Source of the DNA: Robertkochia flava
Lineage (GTDB): Bacteria; Bacteroidota; Bacteroidia; Flavobacteriales; Flavobacteriaceae
Reading direction: 5' to 3'
Length of the DNA stretch: 64,000 nt
Assembly: GCF_020166515.1 (NCBI RefSeq)
Contig: NZ_JAINZT010000004.1
Coordinates: forward strand, 1 to 64,000
The first letter of the stretch is position 1. Every line of letters begins with the position of its first letter. The notes beneath the pieces are model-generated. The model made no database searches. It worked only from the letters and a program-made list of their open reading frames with translations, and was not told where the DNA came from. Shown piece after piece: positions 1,472 to 19,329 of the stretch. Made by a program: the position numbers and the translations under genes.

Positions 1472-3451
1472 TTGAAATTATTACAAAAACATATCTGTAT
1501 CTGGTTCACCCTGGGTCTTCTGGCCCTGGGTGTTCCCGTTCATGCCCAGTTCATCCTGCAGGCGCCTAACGGTACCGATGAGACCAACTACCGGTGGTAT
1601 GAGGCTCAGGACCCGGCAACGGTTCTGGGAACCGACGCCACCTATGAGGTATTTACTCCGGGAGTGTATTTCGCTACCTACGACGGTACCCTCTGCGGGA
1701 AGAATGCCACCAGTTACTTTATTGTTACCTGGTGCGGTACCCCCGACGATCAGGTGACTCTGGACATCTCTCAGAGTGTGCCCTCTGCGGCCACTGTGAG
1801 CTGGAGCCCCGCTGTAGCCGGTGATCCGCTCAGGCCTACGGTTACGGCCCTGTACGGACAGAATAATATTGAGAAATATACCCCGACGGTAAGTATTCTG
1901 GGTAATGCAAAGGCATTGCCGTCCTTCACGGTGATCTGTCTTCAGAAGCCCTTTGTACTTGTTGATGATGTCGTAACCACCGATGAGGATGTTCCTGTAA
2001 ACATCAATATGCTGGCCAATGATATCGATATTCCAAACGTAGGGGTGATCAGTTTTACCAATCCTTCAAATGGTCAGGTGGTCCTCAATGATGGGGGTAC
2101 CCCTTCTGATCCGAGTGACGACACCTTTACCTACACGCCCAATCCCGATTATTTTGGTCCGGACAGCTTTACCTACAGCCTCACCATGATTAATTCAGAC
2201 GGGACAACGGTAACCGAAACTGCTACGGTAAATATTACTGTAAATAATGTTAATGATACTCCCGTGGCTGTGGATGACTTCGTTTCCACTGAGGCCGGGA
2301 TTCCGGTTACCATCAATATGCTGGCCAACGATTACGATCCTGATGGAGATGTGTTAACCGTTATCAATCTCACCCAGCCCGGCAACGGTACCCTGGTGAG
2401 TGACGGAAACGGAAACTTTATCTATACGCCAGCCCCCGGGTTCTCCGGAAGTGACGTGTTTACTTATACCATTTCCGACGGAAACGGTGGTACGGATTCT
2501 GCCTATGTAACCATCGTGGTAACGCCACCGGATGTGGTGATCAGGGATTACGCTGTAGACGATGAGGCCATAATAGAAGAAGATACCTCGGTTACTTTGG
2601 CGGTGCTGGATAACGATAATGTTCCTGCGAATGCTACAGTAGTCCTTATTTCTGATGTAGAGCAACCTCTTACGGCCACCGTAATAGTGAATGCAGATAA
2701 TACCATAACGGTGATCCCTGAGCCTGATTTTGTAGGGACACTGATCATCGGATACGAGATCATGGTTACGACTCCGGACGAGGTGTCGGTAAGCCAGGCA
2801 GTAATGATCATTGAGGTAACTCCTGTTCGGGATGTGGTTACCGATATGGTTACCATCAATTCGTTCGACCCCCAGCCAGTGGTCATCAATGTATTCGATA
2901 ACGATAGTTTTGATCCGAATTCCACCCTGGTAATTATAAGCACTTCGGAGCCCTTGAATGGTACCGTGACGGTGAATGCCGATGGTACTATCACCTATCT
3001 CATTAACCAGGGCTTTGAGGGTACGGATATATTTACCTATACGGTGAGTGTGATCCACTCTGACGGTACGTATAACAATGAACAGGGTACAGTACAGATC
3101 AATGCCTTCAGTGAAGGAGAGATCGTGGATCCTCCGGAGGAGGAAGAAGAAGATGTTTACGTGCATCAGTTGGTAACGCCCAACGGGGATGGCGAGAATG
3201 ATTTCCTTCGAATATACGGGCTTGAGACCTATCCGGATAATACGGTAAGGATCTTTAACCGCTGGGGGGTAATGGTTTTTGAAACCAACGGATACGATAA
3301 TAACGCCAATGTTTTCCGGGGCATGTCGGAAGGGCGTATGACCATTGGACAAAGTAATATGCTGCCTTCGGGCACCTATTATTATACCATTGATTATACG
3401 GGTAACGGAATCAAGAAACACATGGCAGGGTTTTTCTATATAAACAATTAA
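1472..3451 (+). CDS. Type IX secretion substrate with tandem cadherin-like repeats and type B (gliding motility-associated) C-terminal domain
   Basis: A 659-residue secreted protein. Residues 1-26 are a signal peptide ending VHA-QF. From about 160 to 550 there are four repeats of the VDD-x(n)-NMLANDxD type (tandem-95/cadherin-like Ig folds), starting near 162, 265, 360 and 457. A Glu-rich linker (about 553-563) precedes a C-terminal domain with TPNGDGENDFLRI, VRIFNRWGVMVFE and LPSGTYYYTIDY, the CHU_C/type B sorting signal recognised by the type IX machinery. The start is TTG at 1472, because it directly precedes the signal peptide and no ATG fits. The PorP/SprF gene follows after 11 bp, the usual pairing of a type B substrate with its outer-membrane partner. 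It is probably an adhesin-like surface protein; the ligand is unknown. Confidence 0.88.
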   Translation: MKLLQKHICIWFTLGLLALGVPVHAQFILQAPNGTDETNYRWYEAQDPATVLGTDATYEVFTPGVYFATYDGTLCGKNATSYFIVTWCGTPDDQVTLDISQSVPSAATVSWSPAVAGDPLRPTVTALYGQNNIEKYTPTVSILGNAKALPSFTVICLQKPFVLVDDVVTTDEDVPVNINMLANDIDIPNVGVISFTNPSNGQVVLNDGGTPSDPSDDTFTYTPNPDYFGPDSFTYSLTMINSDGTTVTETATVNITVNNVNDTPVAVDDFVSTEAGIPVTINMLANDYDPDGDVLTVINLTQPGNGTLVSDGNGNFIYTPAPGFSGSDVFTYTISDGNGGTDSAYVTIVVTPPDVVIRDYAVDDEAIIEEDTSVTLAVLDNDNVPANATVVLISDVEQPLTATVIVNADNTITVIPEPDFVGTLIIGYEIMVTTPDEVSVSQAVMIIEVTPVRDVVTDMVTINSFDPQPVVINVFDNDSFDPNSTLVIISTSEPLNGTVTVNADGTITYLINQGFEGTDIFTYTVSVIHSDGTYNNEQGTVQINAFSEGEIVDPPEEEEEDVYVHQLVTPNGDGENDFLRIYGLETYPDNTVRIFNRWGVMVFETNGYDNNANVFRGMSEGRMTIGQSNMLPSGTYYYTIDYTGNGIKKHMAGFFYINN

Positions 3452-3462
3452 AGACCGGAGGA

Positions 3463-4425
3463 ATGAGAATGCGATATCTGAGTTGTTTTATCCTGGTGCT
3501 TTTAGGCCTCACCTTCTCCATGGAGATGAGGGCGCAACAGGATGCGCAGTATACCCAGTATATGTTCAATACCATGAGTGTGAATCCGGCCTATGCCGGA
3601 AGTCGCGGACTGATGAGTATGACCGGTTTGTACAGAAATCAATGGCTTGGCCTGGACGGAGCTCCGGAGAGTCAGACCCTGAACGTTCATACTCCCCTGA
3701 AGCGGAGCAAGGTAGGATTGGGACTGTCGGTGATCAATGATAAGATCGGAAATGGGGTAAACCAGCAAACGTATTTCGACGGGGCGGTTTCCTATACCAT
3801 ACAAACTTCTTATGAAGGCAAATTATCTTTCGGACTGAAGCTGGGGGCTAGTTTGCTTAATATCGATTTTACCCGGCTGAACCAGTATGAGGATGTGGAA
3901 TTTACGGCTGCCGAGAATATAGAGAATAAGTTTTCGCCTAATATTGGTGCCGGATTGTACTATCGCACCAACCAGTATTATGTGGGCTTTTCGGTGCCGA
4001 ACCTTCTGGAAACAGAACATTTCACAGATTCTGATAACAGTAATACCGAGGTCTCGTCTTATGTGTCCAAGGAGCGCATTTCCTATTATCTGATCGGGGG
4101 CTATGTTTGGGATATTGATTACCGCTGGAAATTTAAACCGGCCTTCTTGACCAAGGTGGTTGCCGGAGCACCTCTTCAACTGGATCTCTCAGCTAATTTT
4201 ATGTATGATGAAACGGTGACTATGGGACTGGGCTATCGTCTTGATGCGGCCTTTACGGCTATGGTAGGATTCCAGCTCAACAGGGCGCTAAATATCGGAC
4301 TGGCTTATGACCGGGAAATTACCAGGCTTGGCGGTACGGCCTTTAACAGCGGAACCTTTGAGTTTTTCCTCAGGTATGAGCTTAGCCGGAATTACAGCCG
4401 GGTACAGACACCGCGATTTTTTTAA
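3463..4425 (+). CDS. PorP/SprF family type IX secretion outer-membrane protein
   Basis: 320 residues with a signal peptide (to about residue 24), then the family hallmark QDAQYTQYMFN and SVNPAYAGSRG, followed by alternating beta-strands to a C-terminal aromatic residue, as expected of an outer-membrane barrel. Members are thought to help secrete or attach the type B substrate coded beside them; in Flavobacterium SprF does so for the adhesin SprB. The 11-bp gap to the upstream gene suggests one transcript. Only the specific partner is inferred, from adjacency. The downstream 140 bp hold octamer repeats and no clear terminator. Confidence 0.9.
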   Translation: MRMRYLSCFILVLLGLTFSMEMRAQQDAQYTQYMFNTMSVNPAYAGSRGLMSMTGLYRNQWLGLDGAPESQTLNVHTPLKRSKVGLGLSVINDKIGNGVNQQTYFDGAVSYTIQTSYEGKLSFGLKLGASLLNIDFTRLNQYEDVEFTAAENIENKFSPNIGAGLYYRTNQYYVGFSVPNLLETEHFTDSDNSNTEVSSYVSKERISYYLIGGYVWDIDYRWKFKPAFLTKVVAGAPLQLDLSANFMYDETVTMGLGYRLDAAFTAMVGFQLNRALNIGLAYDREITRLGGTAFNSGTFEFFLRYELSRNYSRVQTPRFF

Positions 4426-7990: not shown

Positions 7991-9259
7991 CTACACATGG
8001 GATGCGATTTCCATGAGATAGGCACAAAACAGGGCGGCATAGGTACCCACCACATAGCCAAATACAGCCAGCAGAACTCCTACCGTGGCCAATGACGGGT
8101 GAAAGGCAGCTGCTACCACAGGAGCAGAGGCGGCTCCTCCCACATTGGCCTGGCTGCCAACTGCAAGGAAAAAGAATGGTGCTTTAATTAGTTTGGCTAC
8201 CCCAATGAGCAACAGGGCGTGGATGGTGATCCAAACCAATCCGATAACGATTAGTCCCGGATTTTCCAAAACCTTGGAGAGGTCCATTTTCATACCGATG
8301 GTAGCCACAAGGATATAGATAAATACAGATCCGATCTTGCTTGCGCCGGCTCCTTCGAATTCCCTCGCTTTGGTAAAGCTCAGCAAGATGCCCAGAAAGG
8401 TGGCGATAGAGATCATCCAGAAGAACTGAGATCCGAAAGAGGCCAGGGCACTGGTCTTATCCTGTACCGCTGCCACATTGGTGGTGAGGTAATCGGAGAT
8501 GTTGTTGGCACCCCAGTGCGCAATTCCTACAGTAACAAAGGCTATAGAGAGCATGATCATCAGGTCTGAAAGGCTGGGGTTTCGTGTTACGCCTTCTGTA
8601 AATTTGATCACTTTATTTTTCAGGGATTCAATGGCCGAATCGTCTGCCCGGAACCATTTATCGATCGATTTATTCTTTCCTATTCCCAGTAAGATAACCG
8701 CCATCCATATATTGGCCACTACAATATCTACCAGGACCATGCCTCCGTATTTATCCGGATTGTATTTAAAGATCTCCAGCATGGCAGCCTGGTTGGCACC
8801 TCCGCCGATCCAACTCCCTGCTATGGTGGCAAGACCTCTCCAGATAGCATCAAAACCAACGCCTCCCACGGTTTCCGGAGAAACCGCTGATACGATCAGG
8901 ATCGCAACGGGCCCGCCAATTACGATACCAAGGGTACCCGTGAGAAACATAATAAGGGCTTTGGGACCCAGGTTAAAAACGGCTTTCAGGTCCAGGCTAA
9001 GGGTCATGAGCACCAGGGATGCAGGTAACAGGTACCGGCTGGCCATAAAATAAAGACTGGAGGTTTCATCCGCGATCACCCCTGCGGAAGTAAAGATGGC
9101 CGGCAGCATATAGCACATAAGCAGCGCAGGAACGAATTTATAAAAGGACTTCCAGAAGCCGGAGGTTTTGGAAGAGGTGTAAAAAACGAATCCCAGGCAC
9201 AGTGCCAGAATACCAAATGCAATAGTGTCGTCGGTAATTAGGGGTGTTTGCTCCATCAT
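7991..9259 (-). CDS. DUF819 family integral membrane protein
   Basis: 422 residues with about 11-12 hydrophobic segments. Recognisable stretches are GNxxxW-like IAGSWIGGGANQAAM (about 150), where members of this YjcL/DUF819 family have a conserved glycine-rich re-entrant-like region, and the C-terminal SQANVGGAASAPVVAAAFHP (about 370). The family is thought to be a transporter with a repeated fold, but no substrate is established. It has 50 bp of upstream A/T-rich sequence and sits alone between two terminators. Confidence 0.85.
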   Translation of the reverse strand: MMEQTPLITDDTIAFGILALCLGFVFYTSSKTSGFWKSFYKFVPALLMCYMLPAIFTSAGVIADETSSLYFMASRYLLPASLVLMTLSLDLKAVFNLGPKALIMFLTGTLGIVIGGPVAILIVSAVSPETVGGVGFDAIWRGLATIAGSWIGGGANQAAMLEIFKYNPDKYGGMVLVDIVVANIWMAVILLGIGKNKSIDKWFRADDSAIESLKNKVIKFTEGVTRNPSLSDLMIMLSIAFVTVGIAHWGANNISDYLTTNVAAVQDKTSALASFGSQFFWMISIATFLGILLSFTKAREFEGAGASKIGSVFIYILVATIGMKMDLSKVLENPGLIVIGLVWITIHALLLIGVAKLIKAPFFFLAVGSQANVGGAASAPVVAAAFHPSLATVGVLLAVFGYVVGTYAALFCAYLMEIASHV

Positions 9260-9294
9260 GTATTTTTTAGGTCGGGGGAAAATACAAAAACCAT

Positions 9295-9327
9295 AAAAAA
9301 AAACAGGAGGGGAGCCTCCTGTTTTTT
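9295..9327 (-). terminator. Intrinsic terminator after the M61 peptidase gene
   Basis: Stem AACAGGAGG / CCTCCTGTT, with a long T-run on the minus strand (A-run at 9293-9303 as read). Confidence 0.9.
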
Positions 9328-9342
9328 AGAAAAAGATAGATT

Positions 9343-11205
9343 CTAGCCTTTGAGCCAGGCTTCTCTGAACTCGTCCTTTTTTGGGTCCGGTTCCCCGGTG
9401 GGAATTATCATCTGCGTTTGCATCAGCGGAGCCACAACCTCTCCACGAAGGCGTATGTTTTTATCTTCACGCATCACTTCCATGTTCAGGGTTTCTCCCT
9501 CCTGCCACTGAAAAGAGGTCATGATCAGGTCCTGGGCATTATCGAGGTTATAGGAGACTCCATTGATCTTTTTGATGATATCTCCCGGTTCGAGTCCCAT
9601 GGAGGTGAAAAAGCTGTTCAGGGTCATCTCCCGAACAAAGATGTCTCCATCTAAGCTGGCATCTATAAACGGGTCTTCCTCGGTTCTGAAAAAGTAGGAT
9701 GGTGTGCTGATCTCAACCGAGGTAAGGGTGAGTCCGACTTTATTCAGAAAAACTTCATAAGGAATGGGAGTGGTACCCTTAACATAGGTGTCAATAAATT
9801 GCCCTATCTCAGGATATGTTTTTTCAACGATAATGTCAAATAACTCCTGGTCTTCAAAGGGCTTTTCGGTCCCGTATGCTGCGGCCAGATCCTTCATCAG
9901 GGACAGGATGCCCCGTTCGCCCTGGCTCTGCTCCCTGATAATGATATCCATGCACATAGCTATAAGCGCCCCTTTCTCGTAGACATTGGCGTAATTATTC
10001 TTGTAAGGGTCTTCGAGAATATTGGTGCTCATTTCCGTAAACGACATGGTGTCGTCAAAACGCTTTGAATTCTCTATTTTTTCCAGCAGCCGTGCATAAA
10101 ATTCTTCCTCCTGTATTAATCCCTGGTTAATCTGGAACAATTGAGCAAAATATTCGGTCACCCCTTCGTACATCCAGAGATGTTGAGACATTTCCGGTTC
10201 ATTATAATTGAAATAGTGCACCTCTTTTGAATGAATGGACAAGGGGGTTACAATATGAAAGAATTCATGGGAAACCACATCAACCATGGTCTCTACCAGC
10301 ATGGGTTTAGGCATGGATTCCGGAAGTACCACGGTGGTGGAGGTGTGGTGCTCCAGGGCACCGAATCCCGTTGGGGCGTCCTGCTCCAGGTCGCTTAAAA
10401 AAAGCAAAATGTTATATTTTTTGGTAGCATCCAGGTCTCCAAGGAATTGTTTCTGTGCCTGCATCATGGCCTCCATATCTCCGCGAAGACTAAAGGCAGA
10501 GTATACCTTGCTGGGAGAATATACAGAAAGGGTTACCTCAATATCGTTTACCATAAACCGCTCTGTATCGGGTCTGGCATACATGACCGGGTTGTCGGTT
10601 ACCTCGAAATATCGGGAGGCATAAAACGTATCTGTACCTGGAGTGTTTGAATTACCCGCCATCCTTGTCAGGGAGGTAGCGGCGGTAAAACCTTCCGGTT
10701 TCAGGAATTCTATTTCATAAGGCCGGCGGTCATACCCTTTAAAATAACCGATAATCATGTGAAGATTCAGAAAGTAATTCTGGTCTTGTTCGATATTCGT
10801 TCCTGCAGGAGAAAAAACCGGATCGTCCTTTTCCTGTTCGGTATCAAAGGTGTCGTTGGCATAGTATACCAGTTTGTCTAAGTCTTTGCCCGAGGAGATC
10901 ATCCAGCGGTTTTCCCCCTCATGGATCACCTCGAGTTCGCGTCCGCTATAATCCAGGGCGCGCAGGTCTTCGATATACTGGCCGTAGTTGTCTATGGAGT
11001 AGGTGCCGGGTACGGTTTTAGGGATCAAAAACACAACGGTATCCATGGCGAATCTCCCGGGATCAATTTCAACCTTTACCCGGTCTTCGTTCGTATGTAC
11101 AAGATCTACATGTGCTTTAACAGGCAGGTCGTCTGCCATGTCGTTAAATTTCGGGGTGCAGGATAATACCAGCAGTCCTGACACCAACCCCAGGAATTTG
11201 TTCAT
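9343..11205 (-). CDS. M61 family (glycyl aminopeptidase-like) metallopeptidase with PDZ domain, lipoprotein
   Basis: 620 residues. Lipoprotein signal MNKFLGLVSGLLVLSC (C16). The N-terminal M61 beta-domain is followed by the zinc site VVSHEFFHIVTP (H313, E314, H317) and the third ligand in WMYEGVTEYFAQL (E348), preceded by a gluzincin-like helical domain. Near residues 490-590 lies a PDZ domain (FTSMGLEPGDIIKKINGV). The family cleaves N-terminal Gly/Ala residues; here it would act in the periplasm or at the outer membrane. All three zinc ligands are intact, so activity is expected. It is transcribed from its own region 5' of the HAD gene stop (39 bp away). Confidence 0.93.
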   Translation of the reverse strand: MNKFLGLVSGLLVLSCTPKFNDMADDLPVKAHVDLVHTNEDRVKVEIDPGRFAMDTVVFLIPKTVPGTYSIDNYGQYIEDLRALDYSGRELEVIHEGENRWMISSGKDLDKLVYYANDTFDTEQEKDDPVFSPAGTNIEQDQNYFLNLHMIIGYFKGYDRRPYEIEFLKPEGFTAATSLTRMAGNSNTPGTDTFYASRYFEVTDNPVMYARPDTERFMVNDIEVTLSVYSPSKVYSAFSLRGDMEAMMQAQKQFLGDLDATKKYNILLFLSDLEQDAPTGFGALEHHTSTTVVLPESMPKPMLVETMVDVVSHEFFHIVTPLSIHSKEVHYFNYNEPEMSQHLWMYEGVTEYFAQLFQINQGLIQEEEFYARLLEKIENSKRFDDTMSFTEMSTNILEDPYKNNYANVYEKGALIAMCMDIIIREQSQGERGILSLMKDLAAAYGTEKPFEDQELFDIIVEKTYPEIGQFIDTYVKGTTPIPYEVFLNKVGLTLTSVEISTPSYFFRTEEDPFIDASLDGDIFVREMTLNSFFTSMGLEPGDIIKKINGVSYNLDNAQDLIMTSFQWQEGETLNMEVMREDKNIRLRGEVVAPLMQTQMIIPTGEPDPKKDEFREAWLKG

Positions 11206-13527: not shown

Positions 13528-14313
13528 ATGCGATTCATTTGTTTTCTAATCTGCTTCTTCCCTCTATGGGTCACAGCGGGAAACTTTCCCGACGACTGGG
13601 GAAAAACCGGACACCGCACTACGGCCGAGGTCGCTTCCTACTACCTTACGCCGGTAGCCCGGGAGCGTATAAATAGTTTGCTGCAAGGCAAATCCCTGGC
13701 TTTGGTATCCAATTTTGCAGACGATATAAAGTCTGATGAACGCTACCGGGCACTTGATCCGTGGCATTATGTGAACTTCCCTTTAGATAAAGGCTATAAG
13801 GATCAGTCCCCTTCTGCTTCCGGAGATATTGCACAGGCCATAGGGAAGTGTATCCGGGTACTGAAGGATCCCGCATCAGACAGAGAGGAAAAGGAGTTTC
13901 ATCTTAAATTGCTGATTCATTTTATCGGGGATTTGCATCAGCCACTTCACATTGGCCGGGCAGAGGATAAAGGAGGGAACGATATTCAGGTGAGATGGTT
14001 CTCCCGCGGAACGAACCTCCATCGCGTGTGGGACACCGAAATGATCGAGTCGTTTGATATGAGTTTTACGGAACTCAGCCAGAACCTGCCGGTGGTGACT
14101 CCGGAAGAGGTGATTGAGATCGCTAAAGGCGATTACATGGACTGGATGCAGGATACCAGGAAAATCACCAGTGAAGTATACAATTCTGCCAGGGTGGGAG
14201 AAAAGTTGGGGTATCGCTATATGTATGATCATTTTGATACCGTGAGATGGCAATTGCTCAAAGGAGGCATACGCCTGGCTGCCTTGCTCAATGAAATTTT
14301 TAATGAACCTTAA
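13528..14313 (+). CDS. S1/P1 family nuclease
   Basis: 261 residues with signal peptide (cleaved near WVTAGNF). The trinuclear-zinc residues of the phospholipase C/P1 fold are present: WGKTGHRTTAEVA (Trp and His near the mature N-terminus), WHYVNFP, HFIGDLHQPLHIG, GGNDIQVRW and NLHRVWDTEMI. The family degrades single-stranded DNA/RNA and 3'-nucleotides outside the cytoplasm, here probably for phosphate or nucleoside scavenging. Monocistronic: the neighbour on one side diverges and on the other converges. Confidence 0.93.
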   Translation: MRFICFLICFFPLWVTAGNFPDDWGKTGHRTTAEVASYYLTPVARERINSLLQGKSLALVSNFADDIKSDERYRALDPWHYVNFPLDKGYKDQSPSASGDIAQAIGKCIRVLKDPASDREEKEFHLKLLIHFIGDLHQPLHIGRAEDKGGNDIQVRWFSRGTNLHRVWDTEMIESFDMSFTELSQNLPVVTPEEVIEIAKGDYMDWMQDTRKITSEVYNSARVGEKLGYRYMYDHFDTVRWQLLKGGIRLAALLNEIFNEP

Positions 14314-14325
14314 TGGGATTCGTTG

Positions 14326-14352
14326 GAAAAAATAGCTTTTCTCCGCTATTTA
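14326..14352. terminator. Weak bidirectional terminator between convergent genes
   Basis: Stem AAATAGC / GCTATTT around TTTTCTCC, preceded by an A-run. It overlaps the stop of the AraC gene on the minus strand. Confidence 0.55.
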
Positions 14353-15215
14353 TGGAGTAAATGTCCGTGGGTATCCCGGTACTCTTTTGGGGTTACCTGA
14401 TGTTTCTTCTTAAACGTCTTTGTGAAATGACTTTCGTCGTTAAACCCTAATTGATGAGCGATTTCGGAAATGGGTGCCGAGGTGTTTCTGAGCCTGAATT
14501 CTGAGATCAGTAATTTGTAGTTAAGAATGTACTGCCGGATACTTTCCCCGGTTTCCTTCTTAAAGAAATTGTTGATGTAATTGGGAGACATATGAAAGGT
14601 CTTCGCCAGGTTTTCTATTTTCATCTTATCAGAATCGTAAACATTGAGCCTGATGTAATGGAGGATCTCATCAGATCGGTTGATGTAAACAGTTGGGGTA
14701 GGGCTGCCAGCGATCTTGTATTTCTGGATGATGTTCCGTGCAAGAATGCTCAAAATGGTGGAAACCCCATTGGTTAAGATACTGAGGTAAAATTCCCGTT
14801 CCGCTTCATATTCCAGAACGATCATTTCTTTAGCCAGCCAGACGATCTTTCGGTCCAGATCATTGGCAATGGCGTCACCGGGTATAATATTCGGGTGGTG
14901 TAAAATGGGTTCAATGCGCTGAAGCCAGTCGGTCCGGTCAGGCAAACGGGTTTTGGAAGAAAAGAAGAGTTCGGTAAACCGGATATTGGTAAACCTCGTC
15001 TTGGTTTCTATCTCAAAACTGTGTTCATCATTGGGCGCTAATAGAAAAACAGCACCTTTTTGATAGGGCACTTCTATTTCGTTAATGGTGTGAATCCCCT
15101 TTCCCTCTTCAATAAAAACGAGTTCGAAATAGTTCTGCTTATGAGGGCTAACATCCCAGGTATCCGTTTCCCATTGATTTACGATAAATGCGTTATGTAA
15201 ATTAATTCTCGCCAT
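14346..15215 (-). CDS. AraC family transcriptional regulator (cupin + HTH)
   Basis: 289 residues. N-terminal cupin half (FELVFIEEGKGIHTINE, GAVFLLAPNDEHSFEI), a linker, and a C-terminal double HTH: MKIENLAKTFHMSPNYINNFFKKETGES and SEIAHQLGFNDESHFTKTFKKKHQVTPKEYR. Such proteins bind a small ligand through the cupin and regulate nearby genes. The divergently transcribed small membrane protein at 15385 is the obvious candidate target, with about 170 bp between the two starts. Confidence 0.92.
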   Translation of the reverse strand: MARINLHNAFIVNQWETDTWDVSPHKQNYFELVFIEEGKGIHTINEIEVPYQKGAVFLLAPNDEHSFEIETKTRFTNIRFTELFFSSKTRLPDRTDWLQRIEPILHHPNIIPGDAIANDLDRKIVWLAKEMIVLEYEAEREFYLSILTNGVSTILSILARNIIQKYKIAGSPTPTVYINRSDEILHYIRLNVYDSDKMKIENLAKTFHMSPNYINNFFKKETGESIRQYILNYKLLISEFRLRNTSAPISEIAHQLGFNDESHFTKTFKKKHQVTPKEYRDTHGHLLHK

Positions 15216-15352
15216 AAAGCTGTTTATGATCTTTTGAGTTAAGAGTTGTGTTATTTAGATAGCCGGGTTAAGCTGCTGAAATTCAACAGGTTTAGAAGGG
15301 TAAATGCAAAAATATCGTGTTTTTTTACAAGTTAATGATTACAGATAGGATT

Positions 15353-15360
15353 TATTTTTG
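15353..15360 (+). promoter_or_regulatory. -7 element TATTTTTG upstream of the 140-aa membrane protein
   Basis: An exact TAnnTTTG match 25 bp before the ATG at 15385; TTA at 15332 is a partial -33 match with an 18-bp spacer. Confidence 0.5.
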
Positions 15361-15384
15361 CAATCCTGAAAATCAGACAGATAG

Positions 15385-15807
15385 ATGTTTAAAGAAGTTT
15401 GGTGTATTACCCCATATTGGAAAAGGATTTTTATTTCAATTTTACTGCTGCATGGGGTCTATAATATCCTGTTCTTTGATGATTATCTGGACTTGTACAA
15501 TATGGGAGCATCGGGTGTTCGGTTTTTCGATGATGTCTGGTTTTATTATTTCATAAGTTATTTGCCACTGCTGGAATTGGGAATAGGTTTATTACTTGTT
15601 TTTGGGTTCAGGAAAAAACTGATGCTTGGTACGATCTTTTATCTTCTATTGCTGGCGGGCTATTATGCCCTTGATAGCAATTACCTGACGGGATTTCTGG
15701 TATTTTTCGCTTTGGCATTTTTTAGTTTGTTTATCCTTTTCGGGCAATATCATATGCATTGCCGTGAAGAAAATAAGAATACTAAGGTACCTACGGGAGG
15801 TATGTAA
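15385..15807 (+). CDS. Small integral membrane protein, DoxX-like
   Basis: 140 residues with four hydrophobic segments, a mixed Trp/Phe/Tyr-rich character and a C-terminal tail ending HCREENKNTKVPTGGM. By layout (four helices, FGFRKKLMLGTIFYLLLLAGYY) it resembles DoxX-like proteins, but I see no decisive motif. It is divergent from an AraC gene. Its 3' UTR runs into the first terminator and U-rich box of the small-RNA array. Confidence 0.75.
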   Translation: MFKEVWCITPYWKRIFISILLLHGVYNILFFDDYLDLYNMGASGVRFFDDVWFYYFISYLPLLELGIGLLLVFGFRKKLMLGTIFYLLLLAGYYALDSNYLTGFLVFFALAFFSLFILFGQYHMHCREENKNTKVPTGGM

Positions 15808-15849
15808 TGCAGCCTGGCCCTAAACGGCTGTTTACAAAATCCTGCTATG

Positions 15850-15908
15850 TTCATTTGATTTTTTAAGTTGATGGAACGGGGGTGAGCATCTTGCCCCCGT
15901 TTTTTTTA
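15850..15908 (+). ncRNA. Array unit 0: U-rich box plus terminator (3' UTR-type small RNA candidate)
   Basis: A box containing TTGATTTTTTAAGTTGATGG (15855-15874) is followed by a strong hairpin ACGGGGG / CCCCCGT (15876-15900) and T8. The box matches those of units B, C and D. There is no clear promoter of its own, so it is either the end of the upstream mRNA or a product processed from it. Confidence 0.55.
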
Positions 15909-16036
15909 AAACAGCACGTTATGATAATTCTTACAGGAAAAAACGAAATCACTGTAATAACAGGAGAGATTAATATAACCTTCTCATTAACAAACGGTTA
16001 CATTTGTTAAAATATAGCGCATTTAATCGAAAAAAC

Positions 16037-16066
16037 TTGTCGCTTCGTCTATCCAGCCTATATTTG
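16037..16066 (+). promoter_or_regulatory. Consensus promoter of unit A (TTG-N19-TATATTTG)
   Basis: TTG 16037-16039, 19-bp spacer, TATATTTG 16059-16066: a full match to the Bacteroidota housekeeping promoter. No coding sequence follows for over 1.1 kb on this strand, so it must drive an RNA. Confidence 0.8.
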
Positions 16067-16072
16067 CATGCA

Positions 16073-16268
16073 GTTCTAAAGATCAACGCCTAATGATCTG
16101 ATTTTGATCTTTTTATGACGAAGCGTTCCGTAAAATAATGATAATATATGGCCTTAACCTAATGGAACAGGAAACAGATCGTTGCCCCCAAATACGATCC
16201 TTTCCTGTTCAACCATGCTATAGAAGGAGTAAGATCAAGGCCGTTAATAAGATAACGGCCTTTTTCTT
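16073..16268 (+). ncRNA. Array unit A: structured ~195-nt RNA candidate
   Basis: Starts about 7 nt after a perfect promoter and ends at a terminator (stem AAGGCCGTTA / TAACGGCC at 16237-16262, then T5CT4). Inside are two further hairpins. The first is AAAGATCAA / TTGATCTTT (16078-16112), directly followed by T-rich sequence and so terminator-like. The second is long, with outer stem GAACAGGAAA / TTTCCTGTTC and inner GATCGT / ACGATC, and a C-rich loop. No start codon with a plausible ORF is present. It does not carry the U-rich box of the other units. A 6S-like RNA was considered but the fold is not a single long hairpin. Confidence 0.7.
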
Positions 16269-16319
16269 TTCCAAACCATCGGATGGTTTGCGGGAATGTC
16301 TCCCCCTCAGGATGTAAAA

Positions 16320-16460
16320 TGGCTTTGAAGATAAAGACTTTGTTTGCCGAATGTCGGTTTGAAAGTGAGGTTTCGAAGGAAGTTTCACAAACATGGTTTT
16401 GATTGTTTATATTTTAAGTTAGTTATTCCTGAAAAGGCCATAGATTCTATGGCCTTTTTT
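16320..16460 (+). ncRNA. Array unit B: small RNA candidate with U-rich box
   Basis: The end is clear: hairpin with stem AAAGGCCATAGA and TATGGCCTTT (16433-16455) and T6. Before it lies ACATGGTTTTGATTGTTTAT and then ATTTTAAGTTAGTT (16391-16424), which aligns with the box of units C and D from the shared ACAT onward. The start is uncertain; no good TAnnTTTG element is seen between 16270 and 16390. A 27-codon ORF (16319-16402) overlaps it but has no supporting feature. Confidence 0.5.
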
Positions 16461-16559
16461 ATTTACTGTAAGGTTAAATACCTGTTGATCAGGGTTTAAT
16501 GGGTTGGAAAACGACATTATATGCTCGCTTTTTACCTGAATGGAAACGTGGCTTCCTCT

Positions 16560-16567
16560 TATATTTG
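16560..16567 (+). promoter_or_regulatory. -7 element TATATTTG of unit C
   Basis: Exact TAnnTTTG match; the -33 region (16530-16538, TTTTACCTG) is weak. Confidence 0.6.
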
Positions 16568-16573
16568 CAGTGT

Positions 16574-16715
16574 TGATAATGAGACAGATGGTCCGGTAAA
16601 GGACCAGGGATCTTATCTCCTGATTTACAGGGATAGATTTAAAGTTTTCATAATTGATTTTTAAGTTGGTTGGTTGATGATTAAGGGGCTGCATTTGCGG
16701 CCCCTTTCCTTTTTT
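16574..16715 (+). ncRNA. Array unit C: small RNA candidate, box copy 1
   Basis: About 140 nt from a TATATTTG promoter to an intrinsic terminator. Order of elements: 5' hairpin GGTCC-GGTAAA-GGACC, linker, a 40-nt U-rich box (16643-16682, containing GATTTTTAAGTTGGTTGGTT), then terminator hairpin 16684-16705 (AGGGGCTGC / GCGGCCCCT, loop ATTT) and a T-rich tail. The box is identical in unit D. No ORF of note. Confidence 0.75.
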
Positions 16716-16831
16716 ATCCAGGGTTGCAGTTGTGTCATTATTAGGTTAACAAGTTGAAAAGCAATGCATTAGGCTGTGCGTTTTGAAAATAAAAGCCCGG
16801 ATTTTACAATTTAAAAGCGGCAGTGATGCCG

Positions 16832-16839
16832 TACTTTTG
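16832..16839 (+). promoter_or_regulatory. -7 element TACTTTTG of unit D
   Basis: Exact TAnnTTTG match, with TTA at 16811 as partial -33 element. Confidence 0.6.
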
Positions 16840-16845
16840 TACCGT

Positions 16846-16970
16846 TCAATACTCAGGAAACAAAATCCTGAAAAATACGGGTTAAAGCGTAAAAGAACAT
16901 AGTTTTCATAATTGATTTTTAAGTTGGTTGGTTGATGATTTTAGGGACTGCATTCGCGGTCCCTTTTTTT
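16846..16970 (+). ncRNA. Array unit D: small RNA candidate, box copy 2
   Basis: About 125 nt. 5' hairpin TCAGGA-AACAAAA-TCCTGA, then the same 40-nt box as unit C (16901-16940, identical at all 40 positions), then terminator hairpin 16943-16964 (AGGGACTGC / GCGGTCCCT, loop ATTC) with T7. Compared with unit C the stem shows a G-C to A-T pair exchange and one loop change, while the 5' part is unrelated. This is the pattern of a paralogous RNA with a variable head and constant tail. Confidence 0.78.
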
Positions 16971-17083
16971 ATGAGATAACCCGGGTTGTCTGATATCCGC
17001 GATATGAAGTTAAAATATAGTATTTGGTCTTTTGAGGGTATTATTTGCTTGTTTTCTACAAGAAGCGAGGCAAGGGTCAATTT

Positions 17084-17091
17084 TATATTTG
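17084..17091 (+). promoter_or_regulatory. -7 element TATATTTG of unit E
   Basis: Exact TAnnTTTG match; no clear -33 TTG. Confidence 0.55.
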
Positions 17092-17097
17092 TGATGT

Positions 17098-17220
17098 AAG
17101 ATGAAAGGAAGATCGAGAGGATCCTTCTGAATGGTGGACGACAGATTTTTTCACAGCAGTGATTTTTCACAGGTTATTAGTGTTTAAAAAGGGGGCCGGG
17201 AAACTGGTCCCTTTATTTTT
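17098..17220 (+). ncRNA. Array unit E: small RNA candidate
   Basis: About 120 nt. 5' stem AAGGA...TCCTT, a U-rich stretch (17146-17185, TTTTTTCACAGCAGTGATTT and on) in the place of the box, and a terminator hairpin 17190-17212 (AGGGGGCC / GGTCCCT with a bulge) plus a T-rich tail. The tail overlaps the end of the convergent alkB-like gene (stop at 17213). Only its layout, not its box sequence, links it to units B-D. Confidence 0.55.
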
Positions 17221-17836
17221 GGAGTTCTGTCTGCCCTGTGGGGAGAATATTCCGGAAGGTGAGGTTAATCCTGGGCTTCAGTACCTTTTTACTTTTTGGA
17301 AGCTGATGCTGCCAGGAGTGCTGTGTTTCTCCTTTCATCAGTAACATACTGCCATTCTCGAGAACGATCTTTTTTTTCAATGACTTGTCTTTTTTATGTC
17401 TGAAATGAAAACTCCGGTCCTGCCCAAAGCTCACCGAGGCGATAAGCGGATTTCTCCCGAGTTCCTTTTCATCATCGGCATGCCAGCCATTGGAGTCGCT
17501 ACCGTTTCTGTAAAGGTTGAGGAGGCAACTGCTGAAGCTGCAGTGGGTATGGTTTTCTACCCGTTGTCGAATTTCCTGAAGGAGGGGGGTGTAGCGTTGG
17601 GGGTGAAGGGTGAGACCGGAATAGGTATACGCATGATCGTTGGAAGCGTACAGGGCAGTTAACCTGGGCTGATCATACCATTTGCCAAAGACTCTGACCC
17701 GGTCTGACCTCCATTGGATCTCCTCCAGTAAGCGTTTAAAAAATATGTTGCTTTCGGCTGCGCTGAAAAATCCAGGAGCATACCAAACCTCGGCCTCCGG
17801 CATCTCGAGACGATATGGACTGCTGGTGCTTTTCAT
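17213..17836 (-). CDS. AlkB-like 2-oxoglutarate/Fe(II)-dependent dioxygenase
   Basis: 207 residues, the usual length. NSNGWHADDEKELG-type motif (seen as GWHADDEKELG, about 117-127) supplies the HxD iron ligands, ETQHSWQHQLP the distal His, and RINLTFRNI the 2-oxoglutarate-binding R-x-N-x-T-x-R signature. The family removes alkyl lesions from DNA/RNA by oxidation. The gene overlaps the upstream AraC gene by 4 bp (ATGA), so the two are translationally coupled. Confidence 0.92.
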   Translation of the reverse strand: MKSTSSPYRLEMPEAEVWYAPGFFSAAESNIFFKRLLEEIQWRSDRVRVFGKWYDQPRLTALYASNDHAYTYSGLTLHPQRYTPLLQEIRQRVENHTHCSFSSCLLNLYRNGSDSNGWHADDEKELGRNPLIASVSFGQDRSFHFRHKKDKSLKKKIVLENGSMLLMKGETQHSWQHQLPKSKKVLKPRINLTFRNILPTGQTELQK

Positions 17837-18714
17837 GATGAGGATATCACCTGTTTAAGTGCGTTTCTGTATGCTGAAGGCGATTTACCGGTGAACTTTC
17901 TGAAGGACTTATTGAAATAGGAGAAATTATTAAAGCCACTCTCATAACAGATCTCGGTAATACTCATGGCATTCTCGGAAAGTAACTTCGAAGCGTGAAC
18001 CAACCGGTATTCGTTAACAAATTGCGTAAAGGTCTTTCCGGACACTTTTTTAAAATATCGGCAAAATGAAGGTGTGGTCATTCCTGCCATCTCCGCCATG
18101 CTGTCCAGGGCTATGGATTCCTGGAAGTGCGTTTTGACATAGTTGAATATGCGGTTGATGCGCTCGTTGTCTTCAACGTTGGCCTGCATGGAATATCCCG
18201 AGGCATTGAGCAGTTGATATTCTTCGGAAAGCTGCAGGTCATGTAAAACAGAGAGGAGCCCCAGGAACCTTTCGAACCCCTGTTCCTGTACCAGGTTTTG
18301 TATTCTCGTACCAATTGCCTTTTTGGTCTTACCTGTAAATGCGATTCCGGTCTTACTGCGCTCAATGAGTAGCCGGATATGCTGCATTTCAGGTTTGTCT
18401 GTGGTAAGACTATCGATAAACTCCGGCTGAAACTGAATGACGATCTCACTTTTGTTTCCGGTGAATTTATCGGTAAATCCGCAATGCGGAAGATTAGAAC
18501 CTATCAGGATCAGATCTCCCTGGGTATAGTAAGAGATATGACTCCCGATCTGTCTTTTCCCGGAACCTCCGTTCACGTAAACCAGTTCAATCTCCGGGTG
18601 ATAATGCCAGTAGTTGGTATTGTTGTTCTTGTTCTTGTCATACCTGACAAGAGTAAAGGAACTCCCGAAAGAGGGGTTGATACGTTCTAATGCAGGTTTT
18701 ATGATGCTCATCAC
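17833..18714 (-). CDS. AraC family transcriptional regulator (cupin + HTH)
   Basis: 293 residues. N-terminal cupin (YWHYHPEIELVYVNGGSGKR, GDLILIGSNLPH) and C-terminal double HTH (LDSMAEMAGMTTPSFCRYFKKVSGK; ITEICYESGFNNFSYFNKSFRKFTGKSP). It is not an Ada-type sensor: no Cys alkyl-acceptor motif is seen. It is coupled to the AlkB-like gene by a 4-bp overlap and divergent from a secreted-protein gene (18922), with two small palindromes between them. Confidence 0.92.
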   Translation of the reverse strand: MMSIIKPALERINPSFGSSFTLVRYDKNKNNNTNYWHYHPEIELVYVNGGSGKRQIGSHISYYTQGDLILIGSNLPHCGFTDKFTGNKSEIVIQFQPEFIDSLTTDKPEMQHIRLLIERSKTGIAFTGKTKKAIGTRIQNLVQEQGFERFLGLLSVLHDLQLSEEYQLLNASGYSMQANVEDNERINRIFNYVKTHFQESIALDSMAEMAGMTTPSFCRYFKKVSGKTFTQFVNEYRLVHASKLLSENAMSITEICYESGFNNFSYFNKSFRKFTGKSPSAYRNALKQVISSS

Positions 18715-18771
18715 AGATCTTTTTATCTAAAATACAACCGCAAAAAGGGATTAAGATAGAGAATATTAACC

Positions 18772-18812
18772 AAAACATGTTTTATTTTAACTCTGTTAAC
18801 GGATTTTAACAG
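18772..18812. promoter_or_regulatory. Two palindromes in the AraC / secreted-protein divergent region
   Basis: AAAACATGTTTT (18772-18783) is a perfect 12-bp palindrome; CTGTTAA / TTAACAG (18793-18812) is a 7-bp inverted repeat with a 6-bp loop. Their place between divergent starts suggests operators; which protein binds is not known. Confidence 0.4.
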
Positions 18813-18876
18813 GGTGAATGGTAAAATAGTGTAGATATCAGAAAAGATGGCAGTAGTGCCCCCCGTATTATCGCAC

Positions 18877-18884
18877 TAGTTTTG
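18877..18884 (+). promoter_or_regulatory. -7 element TAGTTTTG
   Basis: Exact TAnnTTTG match, 38 bp before the ATG at 18922. Confidence 0.45.
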
Positions 18885-18921
18885 GAATATCACTGAAGTT
18901 CAACCTTTTAAAATCAGAAAG

Positions 18922-19329
18922 ATGAAAAAAGCATTTAAAATCAGTATGATCCTCCTGTTGTTTGGAATAACAGGATCGGCACAGGTGGCCGCCGTTGATT
19001 ACGAATATCATAAACCCAATAGAGATATAGTAGTATTCGCAAAAGACGGGGATAAGAAAAAGACAATTAAGGAAACCCGGCCTGAGGCTGGCGAACCTTT
19101 TTTCAGAACAGATCAGACTACGGTTAGTATGAACCTTTTAAATCTGGATGCAGGCCCGGTAGAGGTGAAGATCTATGACGAAGAGGATCGTGTATTGTAT
19201 AAGGAGATCATTACCGGAGAATCTTCTGTAGGGAAACGCTTTGATTTCTCTGAGGTTTCTGATGGAATTTATACCATTGCGGTAAAAGACCAGAAGGGAC
19301 AGTTTTTTAAGAAGATCGATAAGTATTGA
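18922..19329 (+). CDS. Small secreted protein, DUF3244-like beta-sandwich
   Basis: 135 residues. Signal peptide MKKAFKISMILLLFGITGSAQ, a short variable stretch, then from about residue 70 a beta-sandwich pattern (TTVSMNLLNLDAGPVEVKIY, YKEIITGESSVGKRFDF, DGIYTIAVKDQKGQFFKKI) like the secretion/sorting-domain-like Ig folds found alone in Bacteroidota. Function unknown. It is followed by a strong terminator, so it is a single-gene unit. Confidence 0.8.
   Translation: MKKAFKISMILLLFGITGSAQVAAVDYEYHKPNRDIVVFAKDGDKKKTIKETRPEAGEPFFRTDQTTVSMNLLNLDAGPVEVKIYDEEDRVLYKEIITGESSVGKRFDFSEVSDGIYTIAVKDQKGQFFKKIDKY

Follow-up and report, generated by a model that had tools for sequence, protein, structure and literature searches.

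A probable array of paralogous small RNA genes sharing a U-rich box and terminator beside an alkB-like gene in Robertkochia flava

Post-transcriptional control in Hfq-less Bacteroidota is, to our knowledge, little understood, and we know of few Bacteroidota sRNAs outside Bacteroides that have been functionally studied. Qrr and LhrC are examples of multicopy sRNA sets, several of which are Hfq-linked. In Bacteroides, the FopS set comprises 14 members, which run at about 65 and 70 nt, share a 5′ region throughout, and have canonical sigma-ABfr promoters; their partner is RbpB, an RRM protein. The same account names Qrr and LhrC as multicopy sRNA sets (PMC11697453). In Flavobacterium psychrophilum, the putative regulatory RNA Rfp36 has a sigma-54 (SM4) promoter, and the sigma-54 promoters reported there include those of GroES/EL, DnaK, Lon, and HtpG (PMC9723704). 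A single table of that paper places Rfp36 in expression cluster B419 and the chaperones in B254 (PMC9723704).

We analyzed a 64,000-nt stretch of the genome of R. flava, a marine bacterium (the window), in which positions 15850–17220 probably hold a row of small regulatory RNA genes that are paralogs of one another (units A to E), preceded by the 3′UTR of an upstream mRNA (unit 0). Like FopS, these are multicopy short RNAs with terminators in Bacteroidota, and by eye they share a U-rich, UUUUCAU...UUUAAG-like stretch with FopS. Unlike FopS, the array units are longer, have differing heads, stand several in tandem, and in most autonomous cases carry a TTTTAC element; for FopS, the word tandem is absent from the text of PMC11697453. 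Qrr and LhrC resemble the array as paralogous sRNAs with shared functional parts and a possible dosage effect, and belong to other phyla. Rfp36 can be likened, by description rather than by sequence, to the sigma-54 units described below, as both are flavobacterial RNAs with a sigma-54 promoter.

The original prediction had likened the layout to that of protein-bound sRNA families. We found no Hfq (PF17209) and no RbpB-type RRM protein (PF00076) at E ≤ 0.001 in the R. flava genome; among 14 genomes, the same searches were positive in five for Hfq and in two, one of them a Bacteroides, for RRM. The FopS covariance model (RF04319) reaches 25.0 and 23.2 bits (E = 0.37 and 0.84) at two units against a gathering score of 56, and nine related loci, together 40.6 kb, contain no match to it with E ≤ 5. 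We therefore rejected FopS membership on the sub-threshold scores, the absence from nine related loci, the missing RRM match, and the differences in length and head. Neither the array nor any of six further related loci reaches the threshold of an Rfam family. Within open-licence PMC, the box letters occur in no paper that is on the subject by its title, and sRNA, flavobacteria, and rpoN are found together only in work on E. coli curli. The RNA family thus appears to be undescribed within open-licence PMC and Rfam 15, in keeping with the earlier view that no description of the set was known.

The gap that holds the array is bounded by a 140-aa ORF and by a convergent AlkB-like gene, which served as the anchor for finding the locus in related genera (Table 1). 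ORFs of 140–152 codons precede unit 0 in all four other Robertkochia species; a DoxX-like label for the R. flava ORF was dropped, since Pfam gives no family. Two AraC-type regulator genes, at 14346–15215 and 17833–18714, flank the array region, and another Robertkochia genome (G004) also has, by eye, a protein like the 14346–15215 product.

Table 1. Features of the array and its neighbors in the window
Feature	Coordinates	Strand	Basis and details
Promoter element of 140-aa ORF, TTTTAC-N24-TATTTTTG	15323–15360	+	exact pattern match
140-aa ORF	15385–15807	+	hydrophobic by eye, no Pfam family; mRNA ending in unit 0
Unit 0, 3′UTR of the 140-aa ORF mRNA	15804–15905	+	hairpin 15809–15831, box 15850–15869, terminator 15873–15903
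Unit A −7 element, TATATTTG	16059–16066	+	pattern match; aligned site in R. marina; without TTTTAC
Unit A	16073–16266	+	start inferred; terminator 16237–16262; without box
Unit B tail	16396–16464	+	box 16396–16422, terminator 16431–16459
Unit C promoter, TTTTAC-N24-TATATTTG	16530–16567	+	exact pattern match
Unit C, predicted small RNA	16573–16718	+	start inferred; head hairpins, box 16645–16676, terminator 16683–16706
Unit D promoter, TTTTAC-N24-TACTTTTG	16802–16839	+	exact pattern match
Unit D, predicted small RNA	16845–16972	+	start inferred; box 16903–16934, terminator 16943–16964
Unit E promoter, TTCTAC-N24-TATATTTG	17054–17091	+	one mismatch
Unit E, predicted small RNA	17097–17220	+	start inferred; decayed box 17159–17188, terminator 17189–17214
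AlkB-like 2OG-Fe(II) oxygenase gene	17213–17836	−	PF13532, 130.9 bits

The six same-direction terminators of the original prediction are all present as intrinsic terminator stems on the + strand. Our finder counted five on + and none on − in 15850–17220, the first of the six being too close to the edge for it; in 300 dinucleotide shuffles the count averaged 0.04 and never exceeded 1. Of the terminators in the whole window, 16 are on + and 6 on −, and no other span of 1371 nt holds them as densely as the one beginning at 15850. A looser scan of 14000–19000 on both strands was less striking, with 10 terminators compared with 4.7 (sd 1.8) in shuffles, the first array terminator being missing from its list. 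The view that the stretch holds no credible gene also stood: two − strand ORFs (91 and 83 aa) overlap array units, and the R. marina alignment (64% over 926 nt) is rich in indels. Folding energies of the units gave MFE z-scores of −4.0 (0), −4.95 (A), −4.2 (B), −4.7 (C), −2.4 (D), and −1.45 (E), the fold of unit E being weak. The predicted autonomous units are 123–259 nt long by their inferred 5′ ends, and their 5′ parts differ.

At the level of sequence, the units share a constant module, the U-rich box UUUUUAAGUUGGUUGGUU placed directly before the terminator, and have variable heads. The box (TTTTTAAGTTGGTTGGTT and variants) precedes four of the six array terminators, those of units 0, B, C, and D as had been proposed, and none of 33 non-array terminators sampled regardless of the box from 134 kb of the same genome; a general terminator feature was accordingly rejected for R. 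flava. Units C and D have 40 identical nucleotides ahead of their terminators (16643–16682 and 16901–16940), while the copies in units 0 and B are weaker. The box of unit E is reduced to a remnant, and its counterparts in R. marina (L070) and R. sediminum (L069) have a fuller one. The box pattern searched by itself with two mismatches is not enriched in the R. flava genome (157 matches vs. 181 for the control), and with three mismatches it matches in 84 of 100 family genomes, where the reversed control is also frequent. From the latter search 30 loci were kept, of which 25 were anchored and 13 had a terminator. In related loci, which were fetched around the array's neighbor, a looser box lies upstream of 33 of 217 terminators and downstream of 4 of 216.

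The four TAnnTTTG promoter sites of the original prediction (16059, 16560, 16832, and 17084) are present, as is a further copy at 15999, and the motif alone is mildly enriched (5 in the stretch vs. a shuffle mean of 1.5; P = 0.02). Three of the sites are marked by TTTTAC 24 nt upstream, exactly in C (16530) and D (16802) and with one mismatch in E (17054). The site of unit A stands without TTTTAC, no promoter pattern was recognized upstream of unit B in the window, and no sigma-54 −24/−12 promoter was found in the window array. The promoter of the 140-aa ORF has counterparts in R. sediminum (L277), R. solimangrovi (L274), and G004 (L275). A start about 7 nt after TTTG would place TTTTAC near −40, where activators commonly bind.

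The exact TTTTAC-N24-TAnnTTTG pattern occurs at 27 sites in five Robertkochia genomes (reversed control, 5); with one mismatch allowed it is not enriched (60 vs. 63 for the control). Sixteen of the 27 lead into a box and terminator within 124–543 nt. These include L275, which also lies within a 168-codon open stretch, and the site of R. sediminum unit C (L273), where the finder passed over the terminator of C and reached that of E at 416 nt. A 17th site, L274, belongs to the corresponding ORF mRNA of R. solimangrovi, where the finder missed the unit-0 terminator. Nine sites fall within open frames that span at least 150 codons; these reach no box and terminator. One site (L280) does neither. 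In R. flava itself, six of the seven exact sites belong to the RNA family. As far as these pattern matches go, most of the predicted autonomous units share this promoter, which outside long ORFs starts almost nothing else. A perfect palindrome, TATGCATGCATA, was also seen within the TTTTAC promoters of three family members (L186, L272, and L287) and just after the sigma-54 site of a tandem run in G004 (L179 near 2769). Four of its five occurrences in 1.39 Mb of fetched, non-random sequence are at family sites, and it may be a regulator site.

Members of the family also occur elsewhere in the R. flava genome, where we found seven further units with box and terminator. The exact promoter sites exposed a near-identical tandem pair on contig C13 (L187, about 73950–74750), with units 526 nt apart and the same promoter string, and a unit at C6:709953–710185. 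We built a model (R2) from 14 Robertkochia tails; since RNAalifold predicted no base pairing from the tail alignment, this model is sequence-only. R2 recovered units C, D, and B, the C13 pair, and C6:710121, all of them training rows; unit C, which has counterparts in R. marina and R. sediminum, was likewise a training row at its model E-value of 4e-13 in this genome. A new match lies at C6:541643 (E = 7e-6) behind an HPPD-like gene, and further matches fall on unit 0 (0.004) and on the 3′UTRs of an Hsp20 gene (0.012) and a ClpB gene (0.014). Two other model matches (L268, C6:292892; L226, C9:294560) are ORF ends with an A/U-rich stretch and a terminator and show no clear box.

The box and terminator thus also end some mRNAs, namely those of Hsp20 (L223, C8:168303) and ClpB (L003, C10:348352), and an 84-aa ORF of uncertain standing ends in the same way, so the tail alone is no proof of an sRNA. 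Judged by these matches, the box marks stand-alone units as well as a few mRNA 3′ ends, and the Hsp20 and ClpB ends are possible sources of 3′UTR-derived small RNAs. Such ends bear on a different reading of the array, which we consider quite unlikely: that it consists of terminators and 3′UTR debris, stops duplicated to shield the upstream ORF and the alkB-like gene, next to promoters that are there by chance. The tails behind the two chaperone genes would suit that account, as would unit 0, a true mRNA 3′ end, and the terminator of unit E, which extends to the stop codon of the convergent alkB-like gene. It is opposed by the fixed-spacing promoter, 16 of 17 exact sites of which outside open frames of at least 150 codons belong to the family, by the stand-alone members on C13 and C6, and by the recurrence of structured heads. 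We retain the reading as an sRNA gene array, with amendments to the original prediction of tandem paralogous units with variable head and constant tail: layout and conservation speak for it in units A to E, unit 0 is predicted to be an mRNA 3′UTR, unit A has no box, the box of unit E is decayed, and no promoter was recognized for unit B.

Some of the heads form one class: CUUAACCUA, as CTTAACCTA or CTTATCCTA, comes first, and after it stands a hairpin whose C-rich loop, GCCCC(C)NAAA, sits on stems that differ from member to member. Units of R. sediminum and G004 also belong to this class. In unit A, CTTAACCTA lies at 16153–16161 and is followed by a hairpin at 16177–16199 with a GCCCCCAAA loop, within a stem at 16165–16211, the head hairpin reading GATCGT-TGCCCCCAAAT-ACGATC. 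In R. marina unit A, loop and structure are kept and the letters of the outer stem are changed. The C6 unit has AGGTTCC-GGCCCCCAAAA-GGAACTT, and the C13 unit has CCGGTTCC-TGCCCCCCTTT-GGAACCGG, with an R. marina counterpart CGAATTCCG-CCCCAT-TGGAATTCG. The loop of the unit 0 hairpin contains CCCTAAA and is found in five species on differing stems, and CCCTAAAC and TATGTTCATTTGA of this unit are invariant across the five. With one rule applied to 17 heads and shuffled flanks as background, placement of the C-rich loop in a stem gave a Fisher p of 7.6e-10, the rows being related by descent and not independent. Taken singly, 7 of the 17 rows fall below 0.05 and 10 do not, among them units 0 (0.11) and A (0.06) of the window. 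This test replaced an earlier one with motif variants picked by eye, in which 13 of 14 heads scored. The class-I head pattern was found in 3 of 149 family genomes, R. flava included, so the head looks genus-limited. Units C, D, and E carry hairpins of other kinds.

The heads also help to weigh a sponge function, in which the units are protein-sequestering RNAs whose box copies titrate an RNA-binding protein or another sRNA and whose heads matter little. We regard this as unlikely. The box is indeed the most constant part and is multiplied in a species with about twelve units, and units C, D, and E of the window have strongly different heads; however, heads of the class with CUUAACCUA and C-rich loop turn up again in several species and in paralogs while their stems change, and unit A, which has no box, keeps a head common to its boxed relatives. 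That the units instead encode very short peptides is barely conceivable. A start context, TAATGAGA, is common to unit C of three species, but the frames behind it have 6, 43, and 15 codons in the window, R. marina, and R. sediminum, respectively, with unlike sequences.

By AlkB identity the nearest named relatives of R. flava are R. sediminum (72%) and R. marina (68%), with R. solimangrovi at 61%; our genomes G002, G003, and G001 are these three species at the locus (71/71 pieces identical in each). The place of the array is occupied in each of the four further Robertkochia genomes that we examined, with unit numbers from 3 to about 12. The alignment to R. marina covers units 0, A, B, and C, and its E unit has a full box; R. 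sediminum has units 0, C, and E, and R. solimangrovi has unit 0, an A-like unit, and two more. In R. marina (L070, complement 3300–3750), several extra inverted repeats were seen by eye between C and E.

In G004, about twelve units stand between the same two neighbors. They include a 169-nt tandem run (L179, complement 9199–10456) to which TRF assigns 5.4 copies with 91% matches and in which we counted six boxes. The run is preceded by a sigma-54 site, and the T tails of its hairpins are weak; it may therefore form one long transcript that ends at a strong terminator, possibly a polycistronic small RNA precursor. These 169-nt copies, together with the near-identical C13 pair, would fit small mobile repeats of MITE or REP type that carry a promoter and terminator. 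We consider that origin very improbable, because the position of the members is shared by five Robertkochia species, and other genera have them near alkB. The same occurrences bear on the conservation of box and terminator outside R. flava, a point on which the original prediction had staked itself: both are conserved there.

Beyond Robertkochia, some other Flavobacteriaceae have one unit beside alkB, and some MAGs have two in tandem, with the same box (TTGGTTGGTTAGTTAGT) and a GCATCC-type terminator. A sigma-54 element, TGGCA-N6/7-TTG, lies upstream of all 17 units picked by hand on box and terminator, two rows of which are identical; the 17 are 14 aligned units, minus L144 (which has no clear sigma-54 site in that alignment), plus four loci. 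We built a covariance model (R1) from 16 of these other-genus units with the promoter excluded; its E-values are rough. At E ≤ 0.01, R1 matches 21 of 80 alkB loci, namely 3 Robertkochia loci and 18 of 77 others (7 of them training loci), and 59 of the 77 have no match. Robertkochia units are recovered with E-values between 5e-6 and 3e-3. The 80 loci yield 30 matches at E ≤ 0.01, every one of them on the strand convergent with alkB. The sigma-54 element is present at all 18 matches outside training and Robertkochia, which amount to 17 distinct sites as two L144 units share one element, against a background of 0.014 per 200 nt.

In whole genomes, the permissive threshold of E ≤ 0.01 gives R1 matches in 58 of 60 family genomes, many of them surely AT-rich chance. 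Twelve of the 60 have a match at 2e-12 or better, and eight of these were in the alkB survey. In six of the eight (G021, G018, G017, G009, G019, and G013) the match lies within about 2 kb of alkB; in G023 alkB is elsewhere than the strong match, and for G010 no alkB was found in that survey. In an order-wide sample, R1 at 1e-4 matches 14 of 79 genomes, 10 of 70 outside the family (best match, 8e-7) and 4 of 9 within it, leaving 5 of the 9 without a match. The family is probably older than the array: at the same locus, some other Flavobacteriaceae carry one or two units with a sigma-54 promoter in front. Within Robertkochia the unit seems to have been multiplied and, in most cases, to have come under a promoter of a different type.

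On the favored reading as an sRNA gene array, each unit would give its own transcript of about 120–260 nt, and all would answer to a single signal. Pairing with target mRNAs could fall to the C-rich loop together with CUUAACCUA or, in units C to E, to their individual hairpins, and box and terminator would form a shared module for stability or protein binding. As a working guess, the units may serve in protein-quality or envelope stress; we draw this by analogy from the sigma-54 promoters of chaperone genes and of Rfp36 in F. psychrophilum and from the box on the Hsp20 and ClpB mRNAs. More tentatively still, and as a conjecture that we hold to be possible rather than probable, these would be members of an apparently undescribed Flavobacteriaceae sRNA family. 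Its ancestor would have been a single RNA next to alkB, transcribed from a sigma-54 promoter as part of a regulon for protein quality or envelope stress. Robertkochia would have made of it an expandable array under a dedicated activator (TTTTAC, in some cases with TATGCATGCATA) that works without Hfq or RRM proteins through some other, box-binding partner.

With a recognizable tail, head motif, and promoter, the units are concrete candidate genes for experiment, and the tail could serve as bait for an RNA-binding partner. The array would be a natural case of sRNA amplification with a switch of promoter type, and it makes a new set of likely regulators accessible to experiment.
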